Of a stretch of 37,148 nt of DNA, positions 1,196 through 31,358 are shown piece by piece. This DNA is from Pseudomonas mandelii (lineage in GTDB: Bacteria > Pseudomonadota > Gammaproteobacteria > Pseudomonadales > Pseudomonadaceae): positions 11,993 through 49,140 of the forward strand of contig NZ_NMOJ01000024.1 of NCBI RefSeq assembly GCF_002251635.1, given 5' to 3'. Every line of letters starts with the position of its first letter. The first letter of the stretch is position 1. The position numbers and the translations under genes are program-made. The notes beneath the pieces are model-generated. The model did not search any database. It had not been told where the DNA came from and saw only the letters and a program-made list of their open reading frames with translations.

Positions 1196-2086
1196 ATGAT
1201 CCGTATTGATGACCTCGGTCTGTTTCTTCGCAGTGCGGCCTTGGGGAGTTTTACCGCCGCAGCGCATGAGGCCGACCTGCTGCCGGGCCAGGTCGCTGCC
1301 GCGATCAAGCGTCTGGAGCGAGAATTGAACGTGCGTCTGTTCGCACGGACAACCCGAAGCCTCCGTCTGACGGCCGAAGGCGAGCAATATTTGCCCACCG
1401 CGCTGTCAGTGCTTGAGGCCTTGAAGCAAGGACGCGAAAACCTGCGCGGTGAAAACGCCCGCCTGCAAGGGGTGCTTCAAGTCTCCGCGCCGTCGGATCT
1501 GGGACGTAATGTGCTGTTGCCTTGGCTTTCGGCATTCCGACGCGAACACCCAGCGCTCAGCCTGCGCTTTTTCCTTTCCGACCAGGTGGCCGACCTCTTT
1601 CGCGATCCGGTGGATGTCGCCATTCGCTATGGCCTGAACGAAGACGCTAACTACATCGCGTTGCCGTTGGCGCCGTGGAATCGGCGCGTGCTGGTCGCAT
1701 CGCCTGACTATGTGGCGCGAAACGGCAGTCCACAGGCACCGGAGGATTTGCTGGATCACGCTTGCTTGCTGTATCTGCAAAACGGCCGAATCTACGACAA
1801 ATGGAACCTGGGCCACCGCACCGTGCAGGTGTCCGGGCCGCTGTTCAGTGACGACGCCGACATCGCCCGGCGCTGGGCCATCGAAGGCGAAGGCATCGCC
1901 TACAAATCCTGGCTGGATGTGAGTGCGGATGTCATGGCAGGACGGCTCGTGGTGTTGATGGAGAATCATCAGGGTGAGGGTTTACCGCTGAGTCTGGTGT
2001 GCGCGCACCGCAAACAGGTGTCCCCGGCAGTTTCCCGGCTCCATGCATGGTTGACGAGCCAGTTCGTTACGCTGAAGCCTGTTTGA
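1196..2086 (+). CDS. LysR-family transcriptional regulator
   Basis: DNA-binding regulator of about 296 residues. The N-terminal winged helix-turn-helix (residues 1-60) has the typical order: FLRSAALGSFTAAA, then a recognition helix with AAIKRLERELNVRLFARTTR. The C-terminal half is a periplasmic-binding-like effector domain (about 90-290). A GTG two codons upstream keeps the frame, but the ATG at 1196 is preceded by GGAG at good spacing and was preferred. Divergent orientation to the dehydrogenase suggests regulation of that gene. The 3' end overlaps the end of the convergent antiporter gene by about 105 bp, which is unusual. Effector unknown. Confidence 0.9.
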   Translation: MIRIDDLGLFLRSAALGSFTAAAHEADLLPGQVAAAIKRLERELNVRLFARTTRSLRLTAEGEQYLPTALSVLEALKQGRENLRGENARLQGVLQVSAPSDLGRNVLLPWLSAFRREHPALSLRFFLSDQVADLFRDPVDVAIRYGLNEDANYIALPLAPWNRRVLVASPDYVARNGSPQAPEDLLDHACLLYLQNGRIYDKWNLGHRTVQVSGPLFSDDADIARRWAIEGEGIAYKSWLDVSADVMAGRLVVLMENHQGEGLPLSLVCAHRKQVSPAVSRLHAWLTSQFVTLKPV

Positions 2087-3886
2087 CGTGGTCAGGGCTG
2101 CAGCATTCGCGTTCTCCCGCGCCTCAGGGTTCGGCGGCTCGATGCGCTCAATATTTCCCAGCACCAACGCTCGCCCGGCAAACAGCCCGCCCGATGTTTC
2201 CAAGGCAAAACGTTCGGCATCGCGTTTGCGCACTTCGTCGATCACCGCGTCGGCTTCGTGCTCCGACGCCCCCAGAGTCACCACGGCCTGACGGCCGAGC
2301 AGCAGGGCGGCCTCAAAGGTTTCCCGCACTATGTAGTCGGCGTCGTGTTTGACCAATTCCAGCGCATGTTCGCGGTCAAAAGCGCGTACCACCAATTTCA
2401 CCTGCGGGCAGAAGTGCCGCGTACTTTCGACAATGCGAGTCGCGGCTTTTTTATCGTCCACACAAACAATGATGGCGCGAGCGTGATGGGCGCCAGCGGC
2501 GTGCAATATTTCATGGCGGGCGCCATCGCCGTAATAGACCTTGAAACCATAGGGTGTCACGGCGCGGATGACCTCTGGATTTATATCGATGATGGAAATT
2601 TTCGCTCCCTGAGCGAGCGGCGCTTGGCAGGCAATCTGCCCCACACGGCCAAAACCGATGATGAGTACATTGCAGCGCAGATTCTGTGCGGCTTCCACAC
2701 CGTCCAGGGAAACGGTCCGCGCGCGAGCAAACCGTTTGTACAGCAATAAAGTCACCGGCGTTATGACCATGGAGAGCACCACAATAGCCGTCATATTGGC
2801 GTTGACTTCAGGACTGATGGCCCTGAGTTTGAGCGCTTCGGCAAACAGCACAAAAGCAAATTCGCCACCCTGCGCCATCAGCAAGGCGCGATCCAGCGCG
2901 TCGTCATGACCGCTTTTCGCGAGGCGCGCGACCGCATAAATACACAGCGCCTTGACCACCATCAGCGCCAGCACGCCGGAGATGATGAGCTTCCAGGCCT
3001 CGGCCACCAATTGCAGATCCAGCGACATGCCGACGCCGAGGAAAAACAGCCCCAGCAGCAGGCCGCGAAACGGCTCGATGTCGGCCTCCAACTGGTGGCG
3101 GAAAGTGGATTCGGACAGCAACACACCGGCCGCGAAAGCCCCCATCGCCATTGAAAGACCGCCGAGTTCCATCAGCAACGCTGCGCCCAACACAACCAGC
3201 AGCGCAGCGGCAGTCATTACCTCGCGCGCTTTGACTTGGGCCAATACCCGAAACAGGGGATTGAGCAGCCACAACCCGATGGCCACCAATGCACCCAAGG
3301 ACAGCGCTGCGATACCTATGCGTTGCCAAAGTGGAGACGTGGGTCCATTCGCCAACTCCGTGGGCGCCAGAAATGCCACCACCGCCAGCAAAGGGGCTAT
3401 CAACAGGTCTTCAAACAGCAAAATGGACACGACGTGCTGCCCTCTCGGCTCGGTAATGTCACCGCGTTCCGAGAGAACTTGCATAACCAGAGCCGTGGAG
3501 GTGAGTACAAAACCCGCTGCGCAGACAAATGACACCTGCCAAGAGAATCCGAAAGCCATGCCGACAAAAGTGAGCAGACATGCACTGACCACCACCTGCA
3601 GGCTGCCCAACCCAAAGATCTGCCTACGCAGGTCCCATAGGTGAGAGGGTTTCATCTCCAGGCCAATCACAAAAAGAAACATGACCACGCCCAACTCGGC
3701 CACCTCAAGGATGGTGTGGGGGTCATTGAAAAGTTGCAGTCCGAAGGGGCCAATGATCAGGCCCGCCGCCAGGTAACCGACCACTGAGCCGAGCCCGATG
3801 CGTTTGAACAGCGGCACTACCAGCACGGCGGCGGCAAGCAAAATGACGACGCCCAATAATTGTCCTGCATTGCCTTCAACGGCCAT
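1982..3886 (-). CDS. CPA2-family K+/H+ antiporter with RCK domain (KefB/KefC type)
   Basis: Inner-membrane potassium/proton antiporter of the monovalent cation:proton antiporter-2 family, about 634 residues. The first 380 or so are strongly hydrophobic and form the exchanger domain. A cytosolic TrkA-N/RCK domain follows, starting at NVLIIGFGRVGQ (about 405-425), with an acidic nucleotide-pocket segment SIIDINPEV. The ATG at 3886 was chosen over the one at 3901 because GAGGG lies eight bases before it. The last 33 residues are encoded opposite the 3' end of the LysR gene and look like a read-through extension. Gene order clpG-like > psiE-like > kef resembles stress-tolerance islands, where a Kef antiporter accompanies psiE. 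The first 150 or so codons are duplicated at 15490-15945. Confidence 0.9.
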   Translation of the reverse strand: MAVEGNAGQLLGVVILLAAAVLVVPLFKRIGLGSVVGYLAAGLIIGPFGLQLFNDPHTILEVAELGVVMFLFVIGLEMKPSHLWDLRRQIFGLGSLQVVVSACLLTFVGMAFGFSWQVSFVCAAGFVLTSTALVMQVLSERGDITEPRGQHVVSILLFEDLLIAPLLAVVAFLAPTELANGPTSPLWQRIGIAALSLGALVAIGLWLLNPLFRVLAQVKAREVMTAAALLVVLGAALLMELGGLSMAMGAFAAGVLLSESTFRHQLEADIEPFRGLLLGLFFLGVGMSLDLQLVAEAWKLIISGVLALMVVKALCIYAVARLAKSGHDDALDRALLMAQGGEFAFVLFAEALKLRAISPEVNANMTAIVVLSMVITPVTLLLYKRFARARTVSLDGVEAAQNLRCNVLIIGFGRVGQIACQAPLAQGAKISIIDINPEVIRAVTPYGFKVYYGDGARHEILHAAGAHHARAIIVCVDDKKAATRIVESTRHFCPQVKLVVRAFDREHALELVKHDADYIVRETFEAALLLGRQAVVTLGASEHEADAVIDEVRKRDAERFALETSGGLFAGRALVLGNIERIEPPNPEARENANAAALTTSNRLQRNELARQPCMEPGNCRGHLFAVRAHQTQR

Positions 3887-4020
3887 AGCATTGACCCTCA
3901 TCCCACATCAGGACCGGTAATGCTTCCACGGCCAGGCGTGTTGAGCAGAGCTTTCAAGCTGAGCGCTCAGTTCTGCAAATTCTTCTGGACTAAGCACCAG
4001 ATCCGGAGCGTTCACCAAGA
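3421..4020. repeat. Left copy of long direct repeat (kef 5' part plus upstream small ORF)
   Basis: This stretch matches 15490-16080 in the same orientation with only scattered differences by eye (above 90 percent over long runs). It covers the 5' third of the kef gene and the 110 bp upstream. The two copies lie about 12 kb apart and bracket the clp-to-oxidoreductase block. Confidence 0.85.
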
Positions 4021-4027
4021 ATTGTAG
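3908..4027 (-). pseudogene. 3' remnant of a small ORF upstream of kef
   Basis: About 39 codons ending in a TGA just upstream of the kef start, in the same frame as, and directly after, the TAG of the psiE-like gene. The peptide includes LSPEEFAELSAQLESS and ends HAWPWKHYRS. The same peptide, with mainly third-position DNA changes, is encoded at 15967-16152. That pattern indicates this was once a selected coding sequence. No start codon of its own is apparent here. Function not recognised. Confidence 0.5.
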
Positions 4028-4534
4028 CTATTCATCCTTATCACTTTCTCGTAAGTCATCCTTATCACGCTCTCGTAAGAGCCAGCAGACGATGCCGAGT
4101 ACCAGGGTGGCAAATCCTAGTGCGGCAATGGTGAGCGCAGGAGTAGCGGCAGAATCGAGAATAACGAACTTCCGGCTGAGCGCCAGCAGGGCGATCAACA
4201 GCACTGTGCGAACCTGAACGATGCTGTTGCGTCTTAAGGCGGGGCGCACAATCGAATGCTTGAACTCCAGGGCTATCAGCACGGTGAAGATTGAGCCAAA
4301 GAGGGCCTGGAAAACATCGTGGTCCAGAGGATCAATCGCACCACTGATCAACAACGGCACGACCCTGCGACAGAGCTGCAGTAGCGCCATCATAATCACA
4401 GACGCGATGATGAGACTGAGCGCAAGAACAACCAATTGTTCGAAACGTTCGTAAGCACTCATCAGCGCCCACTGAAGTCTGAAATTTTTCAGCGTCGAGT
4501 TGCGCTCACGCCTTTCAGAATCAGGCTTTGACAC
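4028..4534 (-). CDS. PsiE-family (phosphate-starvation-inducible) membrane protein
   Basis: Small inner-membrane protein of about 168 residues with four predicted membrane segments. The core between them, with FQALFGSIFTVLIALEF and VRTVLLIALLALSRKFVILD, is characteristic of the PsiE family. The biochemical role of that family is not established. The reading frame is open upstream to a TTG at 4579, but the GTG at 4534 has a near-perfect GGAGGG five bases before it and was chosen. The C-terminus is highly charged, with a repeated DKDDLRESDKDE-like tail. It lies 53 bp downstream of the clpG-like gene and upstream of kef on the same strand, so the three are probably co-transcribed. A psiE-kef pair is a known part of the transmissible stress-tolerance locus. 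Confidence 0.8.
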   Translation of the reverse strand: MSKPDSERRERNSTLKNFRLQWALMSAYERFEQLVVLALSLIIASVIMMALLQLCRRVVPLLISGAIDPLDHDVFQALFGSIFTVLIALEFKHSIVRPALRRNSIVQVRTVLLIALLALSRKFVILDSAATPALTIAALGFATLVLGIVCWLLRERDKDDLRESDKDE

Positions 4535-4587
4535 GATAACCCTCCACACTTGCGTCTTCAGTCTGCCGGGCCCGTCCAAGCATGAGG

Positions 4588-7350
4588 CTAAGTCCCAGTC
4601 TCCGCGGCAGGTGTCAGATCATCCGATTGGCCAGGTGGACTACCCTTTTCGGAAGTCTTTGACGCATCCACCTCGACCTTTTTGAAGACCACTTCGCCAC
4701 GCTCTTTGTCGTAACCCAACTCGACACTGTCGCCGGCTTTCAGCTTGCCAGCGAGCATTTCCTTCGCAAGCCGCGTTTCGACGGTCTGGCGAATCTGACG
4801 TTTCAACTCGCGCGCGCCAAACTCTGGCTGATAACCAACGTCCGCCAGATGATCAATGAGTGAGCCATCAACTTTCACTGTAATGTTCTGTGCAGCTGCG
4901 GTTCGAATGACCCGATCAAGCTGAATGTTCACAATCGATCGGATGTTGTCACGGGTAAGGGCATGAAACACGATGATGTCATCAATACGGTTCAGGAATT
5001 CGGGACGAAAATGCCCTTTCAAGACTCCCATCAATTCATTACGTAACGCTTTTTCCGTAAGGCGTTCATCTTCAGGGCGCTCGAGATTCTCCATGATGAT
5101 GGGAGAGCCCAGGTTACTGGTGGCAATGATGATCGTATTGCTGAAGTCCACAACACGTCCCTTGCCGTCCGTGAGACGCCCATCGTCGAATACCTGAAGC
5201 AATACGTTGCTCACATCGGGATGCGCCTTCTCGATCTCGTCGAGCAGAATCACACTGTAGGGCTTGCGGCGGACACGCTCTGTCAACTGACCGCCCTCGT
5301 CGTATCCCACATAACCGGGTGGCGCACCGATCAACCGAGCAACTGCATGACGCTCCATGTACTCCGACATATCAATACGAATGATCGATTGCTCGTCACC
5401 AAACACCGTTTCCGCCAACGCTTTGGCAAGTTCAGTTTTGCCGACGCCCGTAGGGCCAAGAAAGAGAAACGTGGCAATAGGTCTGTTGGCTTGGCCAAGA
5501 CCGGCCCTAGACAACCGAACGGCATCGCTGACTGCGAGCACAGCATCTTCCTGCCCCACCAGCCGATCACGCAAAGTGTCTTCCATATTCAAAAGCTTTT
5601 GACGCTCTTCCTGCGTAAGTTCGGTCACAGGAATACCGGTGAGACGGGACAACACCTCGGCAATTGACTCCAGGGTCACCTCAAGGGTTTCGGAACCTGT
5701 CTTGCGCTGCCAAGCTTCTGTTTCCTCTCCCAGTTGCGCTTGTTTTTGACCAATGCGTTCTTCAAAGCCTTTGGATTCATCAAAACGTTTACGGGAGGAT
5801 GCATAATCCTGTTCACGTTTAAGTTGCGTAATCTCGGCTTCAAGCTCCTGGATGCTGGCCGGCCTTGACGAGGAACTGATTCGAACGCGGGCCGCGGCCT
5901 GATCGATTAGGTCTATGGCTTTATCCGGCAAATAGCGCGAGGTGATGTAACGATCCGACAGCTCTGCTGCCGCCACAAATGCTTCATCGGCGAATGTGAC
6001 TTGATGGTGAGCCTCAAGCTTGTCGCGCAGCCCACGCAGGATAATGATGGTCTGCTCTACGGTGGGTTCGGCTATCAGCACAGGCTGAAAACGTCGTTCA
6101 AGCGCTGCGTCTTTTTCGATGTGCTTTTGATACTCATTGAGTGTCGTCGCACCGATCAAGCTAAGCTCTCCGCGTGCCAATGCGGGTTTGAGTACGTTGG
6201 CAATATCGAGGCCGCCCTCCTCACCACCCTGCCCCGCGCCAACGATCGTATGTAACTCGTCGATGAACAGAATAAGCTCCGAGCTTTTTGCGGCGACTTC
6301 ATCAAGCAGTTGCTTGGCTCGCTCCTCAAATTCACCACGATATTTAGAGCCCGCAACCATTGAGTTCAGATTGACTTCAACAAGCCGCCTGCCACGCAGA
6401 ATCTCAGGGACATCGCCCTTTACTATTCGTTGTGCAAGCCCTTCAACGATGGCTGTTTTACCGACGCCAGGTTCGCCGATAAGAACCGGATTGTTCTTTC
6501 TGCGCCGCGCCAGCACCTCGATGGTATTTTCGATTTCCTGCGCGCGCCCCAGTACGGGATCGAGTTTGCCCTCACGAGCCAGTGACGTCAGGTCGCGACC
6601 GAACTTGTCGAGTGTCGGTGTTCCCGTCGGGGTGTCGACTCGCCCATCCTCAGCCCCCTTACCCACCACCTTGACCACCTTCTGCCGCAAGGCTTCAGGC
6701 GTTACGCCGTATTTTTTAAGCAATGTCCCGGCGATACTTTCTGGTACAGAGGCAAGCCCGATCAACAAATGCTCTGGGCCAACGTACGAATGTCCTAAAT
6801 CACGAGATGCCTGGAACGCAAAATTGAAAACTTTCTTTAACCGTGGCGAAATGCTCATCTGGTCCACCGGGGCCTGGGCCTCCGCTGTGCCCCTCTGAGC
6901 ATGTTGATCGATGTAGCCTTTGATCTCGTCCGGAGAAAGCTTCAGCTCCTTAAGCAACGCCGTACCCACATCGGTATCCGCAAGCACATACAACAAATGC
7001 TCAGTATCGAGCTCGCTACGGTTGAGCTCATGGGCTTTCTCACCCGCGCGTTGCAGGATTTCCAGCGTCTGGGAACTGAATGCATCGGTTGCATCGACAG
7101 ATTCTCGAGGCACTTGCGCAGAGAGCCTGAAGTCATCACCCGCTTGATCCTTTGCTCCGCCCATGCTGTCGAAAAAGCGGGACACACCCCCGCCCAGTAG
7201 AGAGTCGAATGGATTCAACATGCTTTGATGGCGTAAGAGTTGACGGTAATCGTGGTCGCAAATGGACATTGTCCTGGCTTGGCCATTTTGCGATACGGTC
7301 ACTCGCGCTACAGCGGGTCTCGCATTACATATTTCACAGAGAGTAGCCAT
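4588..7350 (-). CDS. ClpG/ClpK-like AAA+ disaggregase (Hsp100 family)
   Basis: Hsp100 unfoldase of 920 residues, cytosolic. N-terminal zinc-finger-like motif C5-x2-C8-x22-C31-x-H33; then a Clp N-domain repeat pair (about 90-235); AAA-1 with Walker A GEPGVGKT near 292; a short ClpC-size coiled middle domain (about 495-560); AAA-2 with Walker A GPTGVGKT near 630 and pore loop GYVG near 678; and a polar C-terminal tail. The AAA-2 segment between ATSNLGS and [10 protein letters not shown] lacks any IGF/VGF/IGL tripeptide, the loop that docks ClpP in ClpA, ClpC and ClpX. The long ClpB middle domain is also absent. This combination matches the autonomous ClpG/ClpK disaggregases linked to heat tolerance. 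Sits first in the clp-psiE-kef unit. ClpC is the alternative label an automatic annotation might give. Confidence 0.85.
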
Positions 7351-7638
7351 GATGAGTTGTCTCCAAAGATGGATAACACGGACTCATTCGGATGGATCTA
7401 CGTCCCCGTAAACGATGCTCAAGACATAGGGGCATGAGATCCGCAATACGCTGAGATTGCTCAGGAAGACGATTACGTTGGAGGGAATGGTAGTCTCGGC
7501 AGACGACGCCATCCAATAACGATAGTCGGATCTCATCCAAACACGCTATGGGCGACCCAGGATACCGACGAACGACGTCTGATAAATTCGTGCTCAAAAA
7601 TACCGCCAGTCGTAAACCACCAACTCATCAGCAAATGA
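7351..7638. other. Intergenic region upstream of the clpG-like gene
   Basis: About 290 bp upstream of the disaggregase with no gene I can support. It should hold the leftward promoter. On the minus strand CTTGAG (around 7424-7429) and CCCCTAT occur, which resemble parts of a sigma-32 promoter, but the order and spacing do not fit the consensus. A minus-strand open frame at 7334-7597 has no family I recognise. Confidence 0.4.
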
Positions 7639-7746
7639 GGCTATGGAATCACCAGCGTGATCGAGCAACGATTCGATGTCGGAATTCGCAGGGGCGAATC
7701 GATCAGCAAGGACATGATTGCGGTTCGCACCAAAACCATCGGATAA
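7639..7746 (+). pseudogene. Fragment of a LysR-family regulator (effector domain)
   Basis: One frame reads GYGITSVIEQRFDVGIRRGE followed by SISKDMIAVRTK, then a stop at 7744. This is the highly recognisable mid-part of LysR substrate-binding domains (pattern DYGLTDIVAERFDAGIRLGE..KDMIAVR). A stop precedes it and no DNA-binding domain is left. It directly precedes the efflux-factor remnant. The family match is from memory of the conserved pattern; a BLASTX search would settle it. Confidence 0.65.
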
Positions 7747-7764
7747 AAAAACCGCCGAAAATGA

Positions 7765-8087
7765 CAGCAAAAGAACGAGCGCGCGAGATCTTGCCTGCAC
7801 TGGAGGAAACGGAGAACGCGTTCAGCGATTACGGCAAGCGCCAACAACGACTATAGTCAATGGTGCGCCAGAGCGAATCCAGCCTTTCCGCTACCAACCT
7901 GGCCTCAATCCAATACCGCGAAGGCACGGCTGATCTCCTCGTGCTTCTTGATGCGGATCGTGAACGTCTCGCAACCGAAGACACTTAGGCTCAGGCCTCG
8001 AACGAGGTGTATCGAGGCATCGTCGCCATTTATAAATCACTTGGCGGTGGATGGAGTTATCCCCCCGGGCAAGTCGTATCCCGCTGA
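7765..8087 (+). pseudogene. Remnant of an RND outer-membrane efflux factor (OprM/NodT family), C-terminal part
   Basis: A single reading frame carries the C-terminal signature of outer-membrane factors. It reads ALEETENAFSDYGKRQQRL, then ASIQYREGTADLLVLLDADR, then VAIYKSLGGGW and a terminal stop at 8085. Two in-frame TAG codons interrupt it (7854-7856 and 7986-7988), so it cannot yield the full segment. The rest of the gene is missing. These proteins form the outer-membrane channel of tripartite multidrug or metal efflux pumps; no inner-membrane or adaptor partner is present in the window. Confidence 0.75.
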
Positions 8088-8123
8088 GCAGACCCCAACC
8101 GCCCATCTATAAGGGCTCAAGCC

Positions 8124-8660
8124 ATGCACACTTCAGAATTGGATGATGCGAAAGAAACGAATGGCGACCTGGTTCAGGGGCCGCTGCCGGCCGGCACTGT
8201 CGCGCCCGACTTCACTCTGTACGCAACCCCTGATCAGCAGTTGTCCCTGCGCGGGCTAAAGGGAAATCCCGTGATACTGGCGTTTTATCCCGCAGACTGG
8301 ACTTCGGTTTGTGGCGACCAACTGACCTTGTACAACCAATTGCTACCCACATTCAGAGAATACGGTGCGACGCTACTGGGTATCTCGGTTGACAGCGCTT
8401 GGTGTCATCAGGCCTTTTCCAAAGATCGGAATTTTCACTTCAGCCTGCTCGCCGATTTCGAGCCCAAAGGGGCTGTGGCGCGACAGTATGGAGCGTACGA
8501 CTCCCACCTGGGAGTTTGTAAGCGGGCGTTGTTCGTGATTGACAAGGAGGGAGTGATCGCCTGGAGCTACATCTCACCAATGGCAATCAATCCGGGGGCG
8601 GACGGCATTCTGGATGCGCTGGATGCTCTGGCGAATTCATCACAATGCACGCCAACCTAA
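8124..8660 (+). CDS. Peroxiredoxin (AhpC/TSA family)
   Basis: Thiol peroxidase of 178 residues that would reduce hydrogen peroxide and organic hydroperoxides; cytosolic, with no signal peptide. The thioredoxin-fold core GTVAPDFTLYATPDQQLSLR leads to the active-site region FYPADWTSVCGDQL, where the peroxidatic cysteine is near residue 66. This matches the family pattern PxDxTxxC. A later cysteine in LGVCKRALFVID could act as the resolving residue. The gene follows the efflux remnant and overlaps a possible upstream start of the next gene; the pair probably forms an operon with the DsbA-like gene. Shine-Dalgarno is weak (AAGG). Confidence 0.88.
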   Translation: MHTSELDDAKETNGDLVQGPLPAGTVAPDFTLYATPDQQLSLRGLKGNPVILAFYPADWTSVCGDQLTLYNQLLPTFREYGATLLGISVDSAWCHQAFSKDRNFHFSLLADFEPKGAVARQYGAYDSHLGVCKRALFVIDKEGVIAWSYISPMAINPGADGILDALDALANSSQCTPT

Positions 8661-8677
8661 AATTAACAGGTGATCCC

Positions 8678-9205
8678 ATGGCCACTCTCAAAGTCCCGGT
8701 AAGTGCCAGCGACCATCGCCAGGGAAGTGCGCATGCCAAGGTCACACTGGTGGAATTTGGCGACTATCAATGTCCCTATTGCGCTGAAGCGTATTGGATA
8801 GTCAAGAATCTGCAACAGCATTTTCGCGATGATTTGCTGTTCGTGTTCCGTAATTTTCCACTGACCACTGCTCACCCGCATGCGATGGCTGCAGCTGTCA
8901 CCGCTGAGTTTGCCGGGAGTCGAGGATTCTTCTGGGAGGCGCACGACGAATTGTATGAAAATCAGGATCGATTGGGCCTGCCGCTGTTTCGGGCCATCGC
9001 TCTAAAACATGGCCTCTCCGACGAAGAACTCTATCTTGCCATGCAAGACGGTACCTACGTACCCAAAATAAAATCCGATTTTAATGGCGGCGTACGGAGC
9101 GGCGTGAATGGCACCCCAGCGTTTTACATTGACGGGCTTCGCTATGACGGGGCTCCAGAGTTCACCGAGATGAGTCAGATGATTGAGCTTTCGTTAGTGA
9201 GTTGA
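8678..9205 (+). CDS. DsbA-family thiol:disulfide oxidoreductase / thioredoxin-like protein
   Basis: Protein of about 175 residues with a DsbA-like thioredoxin fold. The active site CPYC lies near residue 33 in VEFGDYQCPYCAEAYW, and the conserved cis-proline is in NGTPAFYIDG near residue 150. No signal peptide is seen, so it may act in the cytosol, unlike classical periplasmic DsbA. The open frame extends to 8645, but the ATG at 8678 has AGGTGA seven bases upstream and begins a normal domain, so I chose it. It lies 17 bp after the peroxiredoxin and may recycle it or handle oxidised proteins; this link is inferred from position. Confidence 0.85.
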   Translation: MATLKVPVSASDHRQGSAHAKVTLVEFGDYQCPYCAEAYWIVKNLQQHFRDDLLFVFRNFPLTTAHPHAMAAAVTAEFAGSRGFFWEAHDELYENQDRLGLPLFRAIALKHGLSDEELYLAMQDGTYVPKIKSDFNGGVRSGVNGTPAFYIDGLRYDGAPEFTEMSQMIELSLVS

Positions 9206-9409
9206 CGAAATCGCTAGATAGTGAAATCGCTTGGCATCACCCACACCGTAGCCGAGGGCGAACGTGCCCCATTGCGCACGCGCACCAGGTGTGCATTCGA
9301 TAATATTTCAATACGGGAGATTGAGGAATCCACGGTGCTGCCAACGATAAGCATCGCTCGTAAAGCAGCGGCACGAAAATATCAGCCCAGCGAACCGAGG
9401 ACATAAAAA
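9206..9409. other. Intergenic stretch without recognised content
   Basis: About 200 bp between the DsbA-like gene and the next small ORF. A GTG-started open frame (9221-9406) exists but has no recognisable motif and no clear ribosome-binding site. I see no hairpin terminator. Confidence 0.3.
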
Positions 9410-9604
9410 ATGGCGATGTTAATTTTTGACAGCTCGGAAGATTCCATAGTCGAGGCGCGTGTCCTGGTCGAGGCGCTGAATGAATGGTTGGCGGAACAGC
9501 AGCCCAGTTGCCCGCTAAGGTCCGCCCGTGCGCAATGTTGCTATCGGCCCGATGGCACGCTGGATTCTGTATTGACCGTACTAACAGACGTGGTGGTGGA
9601 CTAG
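9410..9604 (+). CDS. Small hypothetical protein (64 residues)
   Basis: Short ORF starting MAMLIFDSSEDSIVEARVL and ending VLTDVVVD, acidic overall, with a GAGG about ten bases before its ATG. I do not recognise it. It lies between the redox pair and the AT-rich LtrA gene, in a zone with several decayed genes, so it may itself be a truncated remnant. Confidence 0.35.
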   Translation: MAMLIFDSSEDSIVEARVLVEALNEWLAEQQPSCPLRSARAQCCYRPDGTLDSVLTVLTDVVVD

Positions 9605-9725
9605 GTCAGGTGTTGCACTCAGTTTTTGCGACCGTCCCCAAGGTTGACGCCTATACCCGTCCACCCGTTCGCTTATCCGTTAGTTTCCTTCTACATTAAA
9701 GAGGTGCACACGGAGCCAGCAGCGA

Positions 9726-10826
9726 ATGAAATCTTTGAAGTATTATGAAAAAAATCGACACGCCACATGGTTAGAGTTGTTTTTTGACCTGATTTTTGTT
9801 GTTGCAATTGGCAAGGTTACGCATACTCTTGGACATCTTCATCACGGCCACTTTGAACAGGAGCAATTATGGACATTTTTACTGCTTTTTGTTCCATTAT
9901 GGTGGATCTGGTCCAGCCACACGATTTACTCAAATAGGTTTGATACAGACAGTAACCTTCACCGCTTGGCAACATTATTTTTAATGTTGCTGCTCATTGT
10001 GCTGTCTGCACGGATTGGGGAAGAATTGGAAGTAAACTATGCGCTTGTCATTGCCTGCTATTTTGGTATACGTGCCATCATCAGTATTATGTACATTTCG
10101 TCCATAAATAAATTCGATCACCGTAGCGAATTCTCCTCCAGGCTTGGCTTCGCCCTGTTAGTTAGCGCAGTTGTTAGTCTTTCATCCATTCTTTTTGACC
10201 CACCTATGCGTTACTTTGTCGCTTACATTGGGATTTTACTTGACATTCTGCTCCCTCTATTTTCTTGGGGTAAGCTAAAGCCATTGCCCGCACATACAGA
10301 ACACTTGGTTGAACGACTAGGTTTACTCACCCTCATCTTATTGGGCGAGTCGGTAATTAGCCTTTCTGGAGGGTTATCTGACATTCAATGGGATCGTTAT
10401 AATGTGATGGCGGCAATCACCGGATTTATCATGATTTGCAGTATCTGGTGGATCTATTTTGATAGCTTTTACCTACTGAGCAAAAATGAAAGTAGTATGA
10501 GTGGACACTCCTTAATCTACTCGCACCTTTTTCTATTTATGGGGCTAGCACTTCTCGCAAATTTGATCAGGCATGCGATCTTGAATGACATTGCGATGCG
10601 CGATTTCCAGATTACGTCAATCATCGGCATGGCTTTATTTTTCTTAGGCAAGCAATATGGCTACTTCATAGCGGTACCTAAAATAAGGAAATACATACTA
10701 CAAAACACCTTGATCGTGTTTTCTCTAGGTGGGTTGGTTATATTCCTACCCCGCGTCGAGTACATATTGGTCGGCCTGACAGCAACCATGATCTGCTATG
10801 TTTTCCTAAATTTCAGGTATCGTTGA
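9726..10826 (+). CDS. LtrA-family (low temperature requirement A) membrane protein
   Basis: Polytopic inner-membrane protein of 366 residues with about ten hydrophobic segments. The start RHATWLELFFDLIFVVAIGK is the hallmark of the LtrA family, and a second conserved element ERLGLLTLILLGESVI lies near residue 200. The family was named from a Listeria gene needed for growth in the cold; its mechanism is not known. The base composition is clearly richer in A and T than the flanking genes (frequent TTT, ATT, AAT codons), which points to horizontal acquisition. A GGAG lies upstream of the ATG. The gene ends just before a luciferase-like remnant. Confidence 0.85.
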   Translation: MKSLKYYEKNRHATWLELFFDLIFVVAIGKVTHTLGHLHHGHFEQEQLWTFLLLFVPLWWIWSSHTIYSNRFDTDSNLHRLATLFLMLLLIVLSARIGEELEVNYALVIACYFGIRAIISIMYISSINKFDHRSEFSSRLGFALLVSAVVSLSSILFDPPMRYFVAYIGILLDILLPLFSWGKLKPLPAHTEHLVERLGLLTLILLGESVISLSGGLSDIQWDRYNVMAAITGFIMICSIWWIYFDSFYLLSKNESSMSGHSLIYSHLFLFMGLALLANLIRHAILNDIAMRDFQITSIIGMALFFLGKQYGYFIAVPKIRKYILQNTLIVFSLGGLVIFLPRVEYILVGLTATMICYVFLNFRYR

Positions 10827-10850
10827 ATCTTTATAATTAAGCCATATCAC

Positions 10851-11003
10851 GGGTGGATCAGCTATCCGCGCGCACCAAAGACTCAGCAGCTGATTGTCGA
10901 GGACTGGCGCACTGCGGATCGTGCCGAATGTGGTTAGCTGTTCAAGCCCTTCACCCAGTCGCTATACATCCCTACCAACGAGAAGCGGGTGGTCGCCTGG
11001 TAA
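10851..11003 (+). pseudogene. Fragment of a luciferase-like (LLM class) oxidoreductase
   Basis: One frame reads GWISYPRAPKTQQLIVEDWR, and after an in-frame TAG (10935-10937) continues LFKPFTQSLYIPTNE. This parallels residues 213-260 or so of the intact gene at 14256-15239 (GWINYPRQP..QRLIVEDWR..VYKPFAQSLYI). Only about 50 codons survive and both ends are cut, so it is a decayed paralogous fragment. Seen directly by comparing the two places in the window. Confidence 0.8.
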
Positions 11004-11056
11004 AGCACGGGGGGGGAACACCGCGCGGCGGGAGGCCCGCGCCAAGCGGCAAAAAC

Positions 11057-11872
11057 CTAATCAAAGAAGGCCAGGGTGCGAACTTCGATACTCTCGCGCG
11101 GCGGGGCTCCCGGCGGCGTATTGGGGTCTTTGAAGGCGGTATGGGGCGTGAAGCGGGCACGGCCGTCGTGACGTGAGTCATACCCCTTGATCAGCAAGAC
11201 TTCGTCACGGGGCATGTCCGGAAAATAGTACCAGCGCTGTTGCGGATTGTAGGCCAGGTGGTAGATCTCACCGATACGATCCGGATAGACCAAGTCGGTG
11301 GCCAGCAGGTCATTGGAGTCAAGCGTCGAGGCGTCCAGCACGGCCAGCGGCGAGCGCTTGACGGGCCCGCTCATCGGGCGCCAGAGGTTAATCTGGGCCA
11401 CCGACACCAGTGCGGCGGCCTGATCCAGGCCCAGCACGTCGCGAATACGCTCAGGACCCGAGCGCTCGGTGTAGTCATTATGCACACGGCTGGCTGGGCC
11501 GCGAATATCCCGCCCCTCGGCGTCGCTGCGCCTGGTGTGGTCGAAGATGACGACCCGGCTCGCGCCCGTCAGCTCCTTGATCAAGGCCTTGACCTCGTCA
11601 TAGTAGACGCTTTTCACCAAGGCATCGTCGTAGAGGTCGTCGACCACCGTATCCCGCCGATGGAGCTCAAACCCCTGCTTGTCCAGAGACAGGCTGCCTG
11701 CCAACGGACGACCGTTGTGTATCGTGACCTCGCGCTCCTCCTGCTCGGCAAAGTAGTGCGGTTCACTGTCACCGGTCAGAGCCTCGGTATGCACATAGGG
11801 CTTCGCATCGTGCTTGACTAGGTAGGTAAGTGTCGTGATGACGCTAGCGGGCGTATCAGTTGTGTGCTTCAA
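11057..11872 (-). CDS. CmcJ/NvfI-family oxidoreductase (Fe(II)/2-oxoglutarate-type oxygenase-like)
   Basis: Protein of 271 residues resembling the CmcJ/NvfI (GA4 desaturase-like) family, members of which act as hydroxylases or desaturases in secondary metabolism. Conserved blocks: VHNDYTERSGPERI (about 130-143, with the probable metal-ligand His and Asp), INLWRPMSGPVKRSPLAVLDA (about 165-185), and the C-terminal RARFTPHTAFKDP (about 240) that supplies the second His and an Arg. The start appears to be TTG at 11872 with GGGAGG six bases upstream. It stands alone with no biosynthetic neighbours; substrate unknown. Pseudomonads often carry isolated members. Confidence 0.8.
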   Translation of the reverse strand: MKHTTDTPASVITTLTYLVKHDAKPYVHTEALTGDSEPHYFAEQEEREVTIHNGRPLAGSLSLDKQGFELHRRDTVVDDLYDDALVKSVYYDEVKALIKELTGASRVVIFDHTRRSDAEGRDIRGPASRVHNDYTERSGPERIRDVLGLDQAAALVSVAQINLWRPMSGPVKRSPLAVLDASTLDSNDLLATDLVYPDRIGEIYHLAYNPQQRWYYFPDMPRDEVLLIKGYDSRHDGRARFTPHTAFKDPNTPPGAPPRESIEVRTLAFFD

Positions 11873-12191
11873 GTAACACCTCCCGGTCTGCTGACCGCTT
11901 CCGGCGTGGTGTCACCGTGGCGGATCTGTAACTTGTACGTAGTCACCTTCCCGCTCAATCGTATGCCTTCGAATGGACACTATCAAATGCAGCCCGAGGT
12001 GCATGGCACCCGACCGGTAGAAAAGGACCACTCTTACCTCGGCATCGACGACCAGCTTGACCATGACTGGCGTGTCGCACTCCGGGTCTGCGCCGATCAT
12101 GAGCATCCGATATCCCGGCCCGCCCGTTACAATCGTTTGTCTGCCATAACGGGTTCGGACGTTGGTTAAATCAAACTTCCCGTACCACTAT
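11873..12191. other. Intergenic region, possible minus-strand gene remnant
   Basis: About 320 bp between the oxygenase and the porin. A minus-strand frame (about 11909-12170) reads in a coding-like way (GGPGYRMLMIGADPECDTPV, then VVDAEVRVVLFYRSGAMHLG), but I recognise no family and no start signal. The stretch also contains the promoter side of the leftward oxygenase gene. Confidence 0.3.
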
Positions 12192-13505
12192 CTAGAGAAG
12201 CGGAATGCTATAACTCACAAAAATACGATTCTGATCTACGTTACGAGATGCTTCGCTGTTGGACTTGCCGTTACGCCAGCCGAACCCGACGCCTTTTAGC
12301 GCTCCCGACTGAAGGACGTAGTCCAGGCTAATGTCTCTTTCCCATTCCTTTTGGTTGGTGCCTGACGTCGTTTTAATGTTACCGCCAGAGAGGTACATGA
12401 CCGAGCCTTTTAGGCCAGGGACACCCAGAGCGGCGAAGTCGTAAGCATACTGACCGAAAGCTGTGCGCTCGCCTGCGCGGGTGAAGGTTTGGATCAGGCG
12501 GTCTGTATACAGATACAGGCTTGCTCCACCGGCGCCCTTGTCTACCAGGCTACCCTGACTGAGTTGAGTGAAGTTGCTGCCATCCGACACACTTTGGTAC
12601 CCCGCAGTAATCGCGTGGCCACCCAGTGTGTAAATCAACGCGGCACTCCAGGTACGGTTGTCGATTTCTCCATCACCGTTTTTGGTGTAGCCACTAACTC
12701 TGTAGCCTGACGTACCGGAGCTATTTGCACCTGACGAGTCAGTTTTGAAGTAGCGCAGGTCGGTTTTTAGGGACTGATTGTCCGAGATGGCAAGGGTGTG
12801 AATCAATCCCAAAAAATGCTGCGTATAGTAGTTATCGAGGCCGGCGTAGTAGTACTGAGCTGTCAGATCCTTGGTGACTTTCCAATCGCCCCCGGCGAAG
12901 TCAAACTGATTGCTTTCACGCGTACCACCAGTAACGGCCAGCCCCGTCTGATCGCTCGAACCACGTCCTATTGCATGTTCGATCCGACCTCCAGTCAAGG
13001 TCAGGCTATTGAGCTCGCTCGAGGTGATTTGAACGCCCTCGAAGGTTTGCGGAAGCACGCGCCCATCGTTGGCGACCAGAATTGGGAGTTTCGGAATCAA
13101 GGTGCCGTAGCGAAGTTCAGTTTTCGACATTTTGACTTTTCCGGTCAGCCCCAGCCTGCTCCACCAGCTGTCCGCCGCTTTGCCGTCATCGTTGGGGATC
13201 ATCGAGCTGCCCACGTGGCGGCCGGCACCGCTGTCGAGGGTCACGCCGAGCATGCCGACGGCGTCAAGGCCAAAGCCGACGGTGCCTTCGGTAAAGCCCG
13301 ACTGGTAGTTGAGGATAAACGCCTGGCCCCACTCTTCGGTCTTCGACGGGGCGGCGGCGCCGTCACGGTTGTCGTTATTGAAGTAGAAGTTGCGCATGCT
13401 CAAGTTGGCTTTACTGTCGCTCAGGAAATCAGCGCTCGCCAAAGGGCTCAGGGCAATGCCCAGACCGCCGGTCAATACGCTTAATACATTCAACGTGGCT
13501 TTCAT
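12192..13505 (-). CDS. OprD-family outer-membrane porin
   Basis: Outer-membrane channel of about 437 residues, the normal OprD length, for uptake of small substrates such as amino acids or aromatic acids. Features: an N-terminal signal peptide (MKATLNVLSVLTGGLGIALS, cut near ASA), the mature start DFLSDSKANLSMRNFYFNND typical of OprD, alternating beta-strand pattern, and a C-terminal strand ending RIFVSYSIPLL. The open frame extends to 13583, but the ATG at 13505 begins the signal peptide and has GGAG upstream. Its upstream DNA contains a duplicate of the control region of the molybdenum hydroxylase operon, suggesting joint regulation with that catabolic cluster. Confidence 0.9.
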   Translation of the reverse strand: MKATLNVLSVLTGGLGIALSPLASADFLSDSKANLSMRNFYFNNDNRDGAAAPSKTEEWGQAFILNYQSGFTEGTVGFGLDAVGMLGVTLDSGAGRHVGSSMIPNDDGKAADSWWSRLGLTGKVKMSKTELRYGTLIPKLPILVANDGRVLPQTFEGVQITSSELNSLTLTGGRIEHAIGRGSSDQTGLAVTGGTRESNQFDFAGGDWKVTKDLTAQYYYAGLDNYYTQHFLGLIHTLAISDNQSLKTDLRYFKTDSSGANSSGTSGYRVSGYTKNGDGEIDNRTWSAALIYTLGGHAITAGYQSVSDGSNFTQLSQGSLVDKGAGGASLYLYTDRLIQTFTRAGERTAFGQYAYDFAALGVPGLKGSVMYLSGGNIKTTSGTNQKEWERDISLDYVLQSGALKGVGFGWRNGKSNSEASRNVDQNRIFVSYSIPLL

Positions 13506-13868: not shown

Positions 13869-14255
13869 ATAGCAACCCGCGGCGCGCCGATCACGACGCC
13901 CAAGGCCCAGACTGCGGTGTAATCATCTGCGACAGGTACCGAGACGGACGACGAACATGGCGGTTCCCCCGCAATGCCGCCTACGCTTGTTGGATGGTCC
14001 CCATGCTTTTGCTCAGGCGATGTATCGGGTTGGAACGATCTGATTTATTTTGACCGCCCGCTCAATGCCAATCCGGACCTGCCCGCGCGTATCGCCAGCA
14101 ACTGGCCCCTCACTCCGGTCGACCCGACCAGCATGTACGGCGCAACGGGCAAAGATTGCACCCACTACCCCACCTGTCGTTCCCAAGCGACCGATGCCGC
14201 AGCACCTCTGGAAACAGGGGCGCTGTTCACGTTCTCCCCATTGAGGAAGATTAGT
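13869..14255 (+). other. Coding-like remnant upstream of the luciferase-like gene
   Basis: The frame of the following gene is open from 13974 and has GC-rich third positions, reading for example NDLIYFDRPLNANPDLPARI and WPLTPVDPTSMYGATGKD. This is not part of a luciferase-like enzyme, whose normal start and ribosome-binding site come later. I do not recognise the family. It is probably the tail of a displaced gene. Confidence 0.35.
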
Positions 14256-15239
14256 ATGTATCGGCCGAGCACGATTCCTTATCAGGAGCATCGAGGGTTC
14301 AGCCGAACCTTCACTCCGGGTCATTTGAGCCTGGGATTGTTCTTTCCTTTGGAGGCCTTCGATGGGGACACTCCGAGCATGCTCAACCAGGTCGCATTGG
14401 CCAAACGAGCCGAGGAGCTGGGCTTTTGCGCGCTCTGGTTTCGCGATGTGCCTCTTCGCGACCCTGGCTTCGGCGATGTCGGCCAAGTCTTCGACCCTTG
14501 GGTTTACCTGGGCTATATAGCCGCTCATACGTCAGAGATAACGCTTGGCACCGCATCCATTGCCATCCCTTTACACCATCCACTGCACACGGCCAAGGCG
14601 TCAGCCAGCATCGATCAGTTGAGCGCAGGTCGCTTGATTCTGGGGGTAGCTTCCGGCGATCGCCCTGTGGAATTTTCGGCTTTTGGCGTCGATGCCGAAA
14701 GGCGCGGAGACATCTTTCGAGAGTACTACGAGGTGATTCGCAGAGCCCACAGCACCAGCTTTGAACCCATCCGCTGGAGCGGTGGTGAGCTGCGGGGCGC
14801 AGACCTCATTCCGAAACCCACAACCCAAGTGATTCCAATGCTCGTAACCGGGCATAGCCGCCAGTCACTGGATTGGATAGCGCGCGAAAGCACCGGATGG
14901 ATCAACTATCCACGCCAACCGAACATGCAGCGACTGATCGTGGAAGATTGGCGGCTGGAGGTCATGAAGCAATGTGGTTCCGTCTATAAGCCCTTCGCTC
15001 AGTCGCTATACATCGACCTCGCTGAGAACCCGTCAACGCCGCCCACTCGTATTCATTTGGGGTTCAGGCTTGGACGCGACCACCTCCGGGGTTTGCTGGA
15101 GGTGCTTCAGGAAATCGGGGTGGACCACGTTATCCTGAATCTCAAATACAGTAAGCGCCCTGCTGCGCAAGTTATTGAGGAGCTGGGCACTCACATCGTT
15201 CCGCAATTCGGAGTACAGCCTCGTTCCGAAGCGAACTGA
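14256..15239 (+). CDS. LLM-class flavin-dependent oxidoreductase (luciferase-like)
   Basis: Predicted FMN or F420-type flavin-dependent monooxygenase with a bacterial-luciferase TIM barrel, 327 residues. Typical elements: GHLSLGLFFPLEAF at the first strand (about 22-35), AKRAEELGFCALWFRDVPLRD (about 48-68), then LGTASIAIPLHHPL (about 95-108) and QLSAGRLILGVASGDRPVEF (about 118-138). The ATG at 14256 was chosen because GAGGAAG precedes it at good spacing; the open frame runs further upstream into unrelated sequence. No partner flavin reductase is adjacent. A degraded fragment of a paralogue lies at 10851-11003. Substrate unknown. Confidence 0.87.
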   Translation: MYRPSTIPYQEHRGFSRTFTPGHLSLGLFFPLEAFDGDTPSMLNQVALAKRAEELGFCALWFRDVPLRDPGFGDVGQVFDPWVYLGYIAAHTSEITLGTASIAIPLHHPLHTAKASASIDQLSAGRLILGVASGDRPVEFSAFGVDAERRGDIFREYYEVIRRAHSTSFEPIRWSGGELRGADLIPKPTTQVIPMLVTGHSRQSLDWIARESTGWINYPRQPNMQRLIVEDWRLEVMKQCGSVYKPFAQSLYIDLAENPSTPPTRIHLGFRLGRDHLRGLLEVLQEIGVDHVILNLKYSKRPAAQVIEELGTHIVPQFGVQPRSEAN

Positions 15240-15348: not shown

Positions 15349-15945
15349 TCAGAAACCTTCTAGAACGATCTTGCCCCGGGCCTTGCCGCTCTCGACCAGC
15401 GCATGGGCACGACGCATGTTGGCCGCATTAATCGCACCGAAGTGCTCGCCCACAGTGGTCTGCAGAACACCTTGGTCAATCAGAGCGCTGACGTGCTGCC
15501 CTCTCGGCTCGGTAATGTCACCGCGTTCCGAGAGAACTTGCATAACCAGGGCCGTGGAGGTGAGTACAAAACCCGCTGCGCAGACAAATGACACCTGCCA
15601 AGGGAATCCAAAAGCCATGCCGACAAAAGTGAGCAGAACAGCACAGACCACCACCTGCAGGCTGCCCAGCCCAAAGATCTGCCGACGCAGATCCCATAGG
15701 TGCGAGGGTTTCATCTCCAGTCCAATCACAAAAAGAAACATCGCCACACCCAGCTCGGCCACCTCAATGATGGTGTGGGGGTTATTGATCAGTTGCAGTC
15801 CGAAGGGGCCAATGATCAGCCCCGCCGCCAGGTAACCGACCACTGAGCCGAGCCCGATGCGTTTGAGCAGCGGCACTGCCACCACGGCGGCGGCAAGCAA
15901 AGTGACGACAGCAAATAATTGTCCGACGTTGCCTTCAGCGGCCAT
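15349..15945 (-). pseudogene. Kef antiporter / alcohol dehydrogenase in-frame fusion (deletion scar)
   Basis: The reading frame begins as a second kef gene (MAAEGNVGQLFAVVTLLAAA) and follows it for about 150 residues to GDITEPRGQHV. It then switches to the last 47 residues of a zinc-type dehydrogenase (SALIDQGVLQTTVGEHFG to GKIVLEGF). The junction is near 15490. The intact order at 78-3886 explains it: one deletion removed most of the dehydrogenase, the LysR gene and the C-terminal part of kef. The frame stays open, so a membrane stub of about 198 residues could be made, but it lacks ion-path helices and the RCK domain. The kef part is closer to the left copy than the dehydrogenase part. Confidence 0.85.
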
Positions 15946-16080
15946 AGCATTGACCCTCATCCCACATCAGGACCGGTAATGCTTCCACGGCCAGGCGTGT
16001 TGAGCAGAGCTTTCAAGCTGAGCGCTCAGTTCCGCAAACTCTTCAGGACTAAGCACAGCATCTGGAGCGTTCTCCAAGAA
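15490..16080. repeat. Right copy of long direct repeat (kef 5' part plus upstream small ORF)
   Basis: Direct repeat of 3421-4020. Homology ends near 16080 on the right and at the fusion junction on the left. Confidence 0.85.
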
Positions 16081-28845: not shown

Positions 28846-28995
28846 GTTGTTGTGCAGCGCGATAGCGTTAGAGCCGAGTGTGTGAGAAAGGCGCGGGGAG
28901 CGCCTTGCCTGAGGAGAGGGAGTTCTGCGCTGGAGTCTGAAAATTTGCCTTAGCGTCTGATTTTCAGGACTGAGACCCGACATAATGGCCGGTCA
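28846..28995 (-). promoter_or_regulatory. Upstream region of the molybdenum hydroxylase operon with AraC-type direct repeats
   Basis: Intergenic region between the operon start and the EAL gene end. On the minus strand TCAGAC occurs twice with 20-bp periodicity (boxes at 28935-28940 and 28955-28960), two helical turns, as AraC-family activators often need. An inverted repeat CTGAAAAT/ATTTTCAG overlaps them. A hairpin with arms AAGGCGC (28888-28894) and GCGCCTT (28900-28906) lies between the boxes and the start codon. All three elements persist in the copy at 13674-13823. I could not assign a sigma-factor promoter. Confidence 0.5.
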
Positions 28996-31203: not shown

Positions 31204-31278
31204 GGTGGTTCCTGAAGACTCTCGAGGTCGTCCGGTCTTCAGAGAGCCAGAAATAGTAGGCGGCCGATCACTGTCCAC

Positions 31279-31319
31279 TAGTGCGTCGGACGCGCACTCT
31301 ATAGAGCACCGACGCACTA
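31279..31319. promoter_or_regulatory. Nested inverted repeat upstream of the GGDEF/EAL gene
   Basis: Outer arms TAGTGCGTCGG (31279-31289) and CCGACGCACTA (31309-31319) are perfect over 11 bp, and the loop contains the ten-base palindrome CTCTATAGAG (31297-31306). On the minus strand the run of T comes before, not after, the hairpin, so it is not an ordinary terminator for the short-chain dehydrogenase gene. It lies 76-116 bp upstream of the EAL start and could be an operator or a leader hairpin. Confidence 0.5.
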
Positions 31320-31358
31320 AAAAAAGACTCAGATCCAACATAAAAAACAGTATCAGAT

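Follow-up and report, generated by a model that had tools for sequence, protein, structure and literature searches.

A clp gene in a 37,148-nt stretch of Pseudomonas mandelii DNA (assembly GCF_002251635.1, 6.67 Mb in 251 contigs; contig NZ_NMOJ01000024.1, positions 11,993 to 49,140; the whole stretch is 'the window' below) probably, at roughly four chances in five, encodes a ClpG-type AAA+ disaggregase and heads a likely clpG-psiE-kef unit in a Pseudomonas stress cluster. The domains, motifs, clade and neighbours of the gene, and the purifying selection on it, are matters of observation; the disaggregase activity is attributed by analogy with studied relatives. The parts of the gene on which the argument turns are:

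4588..7350, minus strand: gene for a predicted ClpG-type Hsp100 disaggregase, 920 aa (open reading frame (ORF), Pfam and NCBIfam profiles, tree)
7216..7350, minus strand: N1 domain core, residues 1-45, with a predicted zinc site C5/C8/C31/D34, a beta hairpin and a helix (sequence and fold match to 8p66, ligand column counts)
5638..5880, minus strand: middle-domain (M) region, residues 491-571, ClpC-sized, with two long helices (alignment and model)
5002..5106, minus strand: AAA-2 segment, residues 749-783, the site of the ClpP tripeptide in ClpC and ClpA rows, absent here (alignment)

The ORF is unbroken over 920 codons, in agreement with a preliminary description of the locus, drawn from the letters of the window, that had reported a 920-residue protein. 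Pfam matches of the product are Clp_N (N2), AAA, AAA_lid_9, AAA_2 and ClpB_D2-small, the Walker motifs and pore loops of both AAA+ modules are intact, and purifying selection is strong (ratio of nonsynonymous to synonymous rates, dN/dS, 0.03-0.08 against six relatives). Two further features in that description hold. As in the ClpG/ClpK family, whose middle domain is single-winged and shorter than that of ClpB, the middle domain is ClpC- rather than ClpB-sized, being 81 residues long in the window as against 76-81 in ClpC-like rows of the family alignment and 142 in ClpB-like rows (L063, L095, L105, L106), and its helices lie at 498-519 and 523-553 in a model of the full-length protein. The ClpP-docking tripeptide is likewise missing from AAA-2, as it is from every ClpG or ClpK row aligned, while the docking place reads NVGF, YVGF, MGF or IGF in ClpC-like rows L012, L013, L038 and L058 and the ClpA row L002. 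A ClpP loop, named at the outset as what would speak against the assignment, is seen neither in the alignment nor in the model, itself of moderate quality, where the docking region holds a short coil only (758-765). At the C-terminus, the predicted local distance difference test score (pLDDT) of residues 894-920 is below 50, and residues 881-920 contain five Lys with no clear Pro-richness; the extension of the family is described as disordered, 20-40 residues long and usually Pro/Lys-rich (PMC8024975; this and the other reports cited by PMC number are drawn on for the sections available).

A sequence search matches the N1 of the window to the solved ClpG N1, 8p66 (E 8.6e-7), and a fold search with the N1 model (mean pLDDT 76.9, residues 1-40 at 86-88) returns 8p66 as top Protein Data Bank (PDB) match (E 1.8e-3, probability 1.00, template modelling score 0.55), with no PDB fold match of the model reaching E 0.001. 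C5, C8 and C31 are present in 52 rows of the family alignment (near-duplicates counted). In those rows position 34 is D (27 rows), H (23) or C (2) and never anything else, while position 33 shows eleven different residues, so that position 34 is taken to be the fourth-ligand column. There the window has Asp34, with His33 adjacent, a pairing found in all 16 rows of its branch that come from its own family. The C-x2-C-x22-C-x-H finger first described is therefore present as a string (C5, C8, C31, H33), but its last member is misassigned, the fourth ligand column being Asp34 and not His33. In Pseudomonas aeruginosa ClpG, to whose His34 column 34 corresponds, the ligands are C6/C9/C31/H34, and an H34A single mutant is described as 'largely active' (PMC10641755), which makes Asp34 plausible as the predicted fourth zinc ligand. 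V17, required for aggregate targeting in that work (PMC10641755), is retained (for N1 and zinc-site function see also PMC8024975). A four-cysteine finger, with C at 34, occurs in the Clp N-termini of Thermoanaerobacterales L057 and WOR-1 L076, the latter also with an IGF tripeptide; it is possible that this is an older form of the N1 finger.

The main tree has 46 rows (IQ-TREE with posterior mean site frequencies, PMSF, and a quick search; support by the Shimodaira-Hasegawa-like approximate likelihood ratio test, SH-aLRT, without bootstrap). Omitted from it were overlapping or partial ORFs (L119_2, L124_2, L189_2, L001_1, L003_1, L097_1), 15 near-duplicates, the frameshifted L010 and L181, and long branches or far families (L204, L091, L092, L105, L067, L056, L032, L057, L076, L202); L182 and L201 gave no single ORF. 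Long-branch warnings attach to the ClpA row, the actinobacterial ClpC rows and the Streptomyces rows. (An earlier tree, on which the verdict does not rest, did not place L057 and L076, the rows with four cysteines, among those of ClpG.) A single clade with SH-aLRT 100 unites 34 N1-bearing proteobacterial and Deinococcus rows, the window among them, with the ClpC, ClpB and ClpA rows outside. The ClpG/ClpK-type assignment first proposed is thereby upheld, and the grouping with ClpC that would have told against it is not what the tree gives. Within the clade, the window belongs to a branch of 19 rows (SH-aLRT 100) made up of Pseudomonas, Burkholderiaceae and enterobacterial plasmid proteins; this joins the core ClpG row L189 (SH-aLRT 96), and the ClpK rows of the type found in the transmissible locus for stress tolerance (tLST) form a separate group of 11 rows (SH-aLRT 89). 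The closest named relatives are Pseudomonas L009 and L010 at 94%, and the same-genus genome G005 has a copy at 99%. The frameshift in L010 and L181 lies near codon 65-69, inside a short repeat (~10201-10210 and ~8768-8775, respectively), and may be an assembly error; the two are probably one genome, UBA1879.

Profile scores agree with an intermediate position. NCBIfam sets its cut-off at 1900 bits for both ClpG (NF033607) and ClpK (NF033606). The top model for the window protein is ClpG, with 1400.8 bits over residues 3-893 and 1259.2 for ClpK; branch members L120, L119 and L174 reach 1391, 1442.3 and 1398.4 with the ClpG model. The controls score above the cut-offs (the partial L189 at 2075.7 with the ClpG model, the tLST ClpK L122 at 2144.7 with its own) and the branch members below, which leaves the branch between the ClpG and ClpK models. 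Among 248 same-family genomes a single one passes the ClpG cut-off, G532, the source of L189 (2183.1 bits, against 1402.7 for the window in the same search). That the window protein is a ClpG-type Hsp100 of a third branch is, as far as sequence comparison goes, well supported. It shares with the P. aeruginosa-type core ClpG (L189) the N1-N2-AAA1-M-AAA2 plan and the lack of a ClpP tripeptide, but is only 67.0% identical over 903 columns (53.3% in N1 residues 1-45), and the core protein has H where the window has D34. With the tLST ClpK/ClpG_GI (L122) it shares architecture, a zinc-type N1 and the missing tripeptide, at 61.2% identity and in a different tree group. Further ClpG subgroups in various genetic contexts have been announced, ClpG2_GI, ClpG3_GI (Pseudomonas putida Idaho) and ClpH (PMC8290217), and the present branch could be among them.

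Catalysis is expected to follow the established mechanism. By analogy with P. aeruginosa ClpG and ClpG_GI, the protein would assemble as a hexamer, and its N1, zinc-stabilized by C5/C8/C31/D34, would bind aggregate surfaces via V17 and V19 of the first beta strand. Driven by ATP hydrolysis in the two AAA+ rings, polypeptides would be drawn through the pore by way of Y337 (first ring) and the GYVGY loop (second ring) and set free to refold rather than passed to ClpP, with presumed independence from both DnaK and ClpP. The gene probably opens a clpG-psiE-kef transcription unit (a single transcript is a guess), divergent from a peroxiredoxin-DsbA pair, and may contribute to a cluster role in envelope, redox and proteotoxic stress, in which cooperation with PsiE, Kef, the peroxiredoxin and DsbA is again a guess.

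Several points weigh against a ClpG-type disaggregase. The protein misses both 1900-bit cut-offs; the fourth-ligand His34 is replaced by Asp; Leu21, important in the N1 of ClpG_GI, is Gln (as it also is in the core row L189); and the full-length model is weak to moderate (pLDDT 74.5, predicted template modelling score 0.43, from 15 sequences). No steady sigma-32 promoter was found upstream of the gene, and reports of activity for this branch were not found in the literature searched. Bojer et al. in 2013 reportedly described, to go by the title, activities of the clpK locus that depend on ClpP as well as others that do not. Absence of the tripeptide is by itself insufficient to define the ClpG family, since it is missing from Streptomyces L023 and L053 too, and L076, with its four-cysteine finger, has IGF; a species-specific protease motif is allowed for in one report (PMC7685784). 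A ClpC-like unfoldase that depends on ClpP and feeds a protease would be in keeping with the ClpC-sized M region and with the whole-protein comparison, in which ClpC scores highest among solved relatives (842.3 bits), but the absent VGF/IGF-type tripeptide, the position outside the ClpC rows and the presence of N1 make it very improbable. ClpC identity as such is rejected on the tree and the tripeptide, and ClpB identity on the tree, where the window lies outside the ClpB rows.

The ClpG-type gene is embedded as follows:

7351..7590, minus strand: clpG leader, 240 nt, with a hairpin predicted over the Shine-Dalgarno sequence just before the start codon (leader alignment and folding)
4028..4534, minus strand: psiE (PF06146, E 7.1e-28)
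1982..3901, minus strand: kef-type CPA2 antiporter gene with a TrkA-N domain (PF00999, PF02254)
8124..8660, plus strand: AhpC/TSA-family peroxiredoxin (PF00578, E 1e-33)
8645..9205, plus strand: DsbA-like/Thioredoxin_4 protein (PF13462, E 6.7e-22)
9726..10826, plus strand: LtrA-family membrane protein, a recurrent neighbour (PF06772)
13974..15239, plus strand: LLM-class oxidoreductase, a recurrent neighbour (TIGR03571)
15349..16080, minus strand: duplicate scar, in which the adh 3′ end is fused in frame to the kef 5′ end plus DNA upstream of kef (copies of 78-212 and 3431-4021)

On the minus strand the order is clpG, psiE, kef. The psiE start is likely the GTG at 4534, 53 nt past the clpG stop (the mechanical ORF starts at TTG 4579). 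The peroxiredoxin and DsbA-like genes, correctly placed on the other side of clp by the preliminary description, diverge from clpG and are followed by LtrA; their mechanical ORFs overlap by 16 nt, an overlap that a later ATG at 8678 would abolish.

The order clp, psiE, kef had been read as part of a reduced or minimal tLST, and it is here that the original interpretation gives way. The annotated tLST runs hsp20-clpK-...-hsp20GI-yfdX1-yfdX2-hdeD-orf-trx-kefB-psiE-...-peptidase, with kefB first and kefB-psiE far from clpK, while in the window psiE comes first and then kef; the kefB-first adjacency of kefB-GI and psiE-GI is not seen. The window Kef is only 28-29% identical to tLST KefB and its PsiE 57% identical to tLST PsiE. 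The reported absence of small heat-shock proteins, yfdX, hdeD and degP is correct, in that tblastn with Hsp20, Hsp20-GI, YfdX1, YfdX2, HdeD, Trx and DegP returns no match (E<=1e-3), whether in the window or over the preceding 12 kb of the contig; the companions of tLST ClpK (Hsp20, YfdX, HdeD, Trx, KefB-GI) are unlike the neighbours here. The core unit of any such locus is stated to be dna-shsp20-clpG_GI (PMC7685784), and the window has no Hsp20 match, while its ClpG is separate from those of the tLST (no search was made for the dna regulator). In the psiE tree (like that for kef, quick and with long-branch warnings), the copies that adjoin window-branch ClpG are united with support 96 and those that adjoin ClpK, including the tLST copy, with support 94, Roseomonas L166 belonging to neither group; the kef tree likewise unites the ClpG-associated copies (99, a genome lacking Clp among them) but keeps them close to ClpK-associated copies, which are 83-87% identical to the window Kef.

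That the window is a reduced tLST is on these grounds improbable, though the parts held in common are real: a ClpG-family gene, PsiE, an antiporter and a GGDEF/EAL gene at 28993-31401, c-di-GMP genes being often acquired in loci whose gene content evolves (PMC8290217). L184 and L186 have ClpK-PsiE-Kef in the gene order of the window, and L185 (G066) has ClpK-PsiE and three Hsp20 matches, then Kef (84%)-Prx-DsbA-LtrA (Prx, peroxiredoxin), uniting tLST-type ClpK, PsiE and Hsp20 with counterparts of the Kef, Prx, DsbA and LtrA genes of the window, so that tLST-like and window-like loci share genes. The better reading is of a stress cluster of Pseudomonas, made up of Prx-DsbA-LtrA, PsiE and Kef, whose clp-psiE pair is either clpG-psiE of the window type or clpK-psiE. 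Relative to the tLST, the plain reading of these comparisons would be shared parts, not reduction.

The distribution of the branch bears on how tightly that cluster holds together. In a same-genus sample of 398 genomes, one per species, 24 have a ClpG-model match at E<=1e-300 (a limit that may miss weaker ClpG-like genes), which shows that the family extends beyond P. aeruginosa and the tLST. Fourteen are of the window branch (1320.8-1425.2 bits) and 10 are ClpK-like by score (1242-1298.9), eight of these being ClpK-type by sequence as well. Twelve of the 14 branch genomes have Prx and DsbA near clpG, inside the stretch fetched, the exceptions being L169, which starts near a contig end, and L174, which has the peroxidase DyP; the pair diverges from clpG in eight of the 12 loci and is upstream in the same direction in four. 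The DsbA orthologue is present in 12 of the 14 branch genomes and in 10 of the other 384, and 13 of these 22 genomes have ClpG or ClpK; Kef at >=80% is found in 16 of 398, 13 of them with ClpG or ClpK (all these counts being uncorrected for relatedness). Against tight coupling stand the nine genomes with the DsbA orthologue and no ClpG, the mere kef fragment in L009 and L180, and several loci with neither psiE nor kef, or only one of them, nearby.

Elsewhere the branch has other peroxidase company. Burkholderiaceae and enterobacterial plasmid ClpGs (18 records, H1-H18, with a best place of >=76% identity to the window ClpG) belong to the same 19-row branch at 76-82% identity with H or D at 34, but often adjoin NAD formate dehydrogenase, DyP, encapsulin and FdhF/YdeP where the window has Prx-DsbA-PsiE-Kef. 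DyP and a family-1 encapsulin are beside clp at 12 of the 18 best places (H3-H7, H9, H11, H13-H17), and a second place on the H12 plasmid, whose best place lacks them, raises this to 13 of 18 records; in the fetched DNA of H1, H2, H8, H10 and H18 the two are not found together, H10 keeping a DyP stretch. Plasmid examples with DyP-encapsulin-ClpG are L119, L120, L121, L124, L163, L167, L264 and L265; such loci often carry NAD formate dehydrogenase and FdhF/YdeP, and in enterobacteria RpoH and MscS. In the family of the window itself, DyP is directly upstream of clpG in L174 (DyP 7647-8591, clpG 8919-11678) and L190 (DyP 4653-5588), with the DyP match covering the 353-residue query only as far as residue 317-320; the fetched DNA (5.7 kb only for L190) showed no encapsulin. 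DyP is also near the 65% ClpG of Paracoccus L165. The Caballeronia plasmid L164 has two ClpG-type genes, 2593-5319 and 10001-12748, separated by some 4.7 kb and with identities of 61% and 78% to the window. In the literature searched, encapsulin was not found in combination with ClpG or ClpK, and a word find in the main text of work on enterobacterial DyP encapsulins returned no mention of Clp.

A specialization of the branch for peroxide- or disulphide-damaged protein, with the gene kept beside peroxide-removing enzymes, would account for these two unrelated settings, Prx and DsbA in Pseudomonas and DyP and family-1 encapsulin on plasmids, and for the DyP genes of L174, L190 and Paracoccus. 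The evidence is of neighbourhood only, however, and the association is loose: at six of the 18 best plasmid places the fetched DNA does not show the pairing of DyP with encapsulin; 55 of 5426 Escherichia coli genomes match some of the DyP-encapsulin-ClpG stretch, which is near-complete (>=80% at one place) in only two; nine genomes have the DsbA orthologue without ClpG; and encapsulin has no match in the genome of the window. The specialization is accordingly rated unlikely, if worth entertaining. Equally tentative is a broader version, in which the third branch (with D or H as its fourth zinc residue and scores under the cut-offs of both NCBI models) would be a mobile component of proteostasis that serves oxidative stress instead of heat stress, joined repeatedly to peroxide-removing modules (DyP-encapsulin in Burkholderiaceae and enterobacterial plasmids, Prx-DsbA in Pseudomonas), its clpG-psiE and the tLST-type clpK-psiE having replaced each other at least once in one Pseudomonas cluster; clpG translation may also be gated by the hairpin over the Shine-Dalgarno sequence. 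The recurring peroxidase neighbours do make an oxidative as opposed to a thermal aggregation role of some ClpGs a testable question, and the DyP-encapsulin-ClpG loci suggest a chaperone partner for some DyP-encapsulin loci.

As to that hairpin, mean column identity of the leader is 90% across 12 Pseudomonas loci. The predicted structure (7351-7394, minus strand) covers GGAG and the start region and is the same in close Pseudomonas leaders, more distant branch members being without it. Its pairs are invariant among the 12 leaders, and so there is no covariation signal either way. Energies compared with shuffled sequences are unremarkable (z -1.59, -1.33 and -0.83 in three leaders, 0.09 in L174), and an RNA thermometer is kept as a lead only. 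No Rfam family fits the leader, the sole match in 7300-8130 being a sub-threshold fluoride element on the other strand. The best sigma-32 promoter candidates score 7-9 over 12 positions, at differing places in different loci, and were rejected; clpG_GI transcription is stated to be sigma-32 independent (PMC7685784).

Some minor features of the genome may be added. No ClpB scores above the cut-off (G005 has one), but its place is a contig break (C82/C84) and no conclusion on its loss is drawn. The GGDEF/EAL gene mentioned above (minus strand) encodes a GAF-PAS-GGDEF-EAL protein, whose counterpart beside Prx-DsbA-clpG in L009 is 88% identical. A fragment at 10833-10985 matches residues 302-352 of the LLM oxidoreductase at 53% identity, with similar fragments in L171, L172 and L175. 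The scar at 15349-16080 forms a 203-aa ORF, and a similar scar is present in G005 (L172) and L171.

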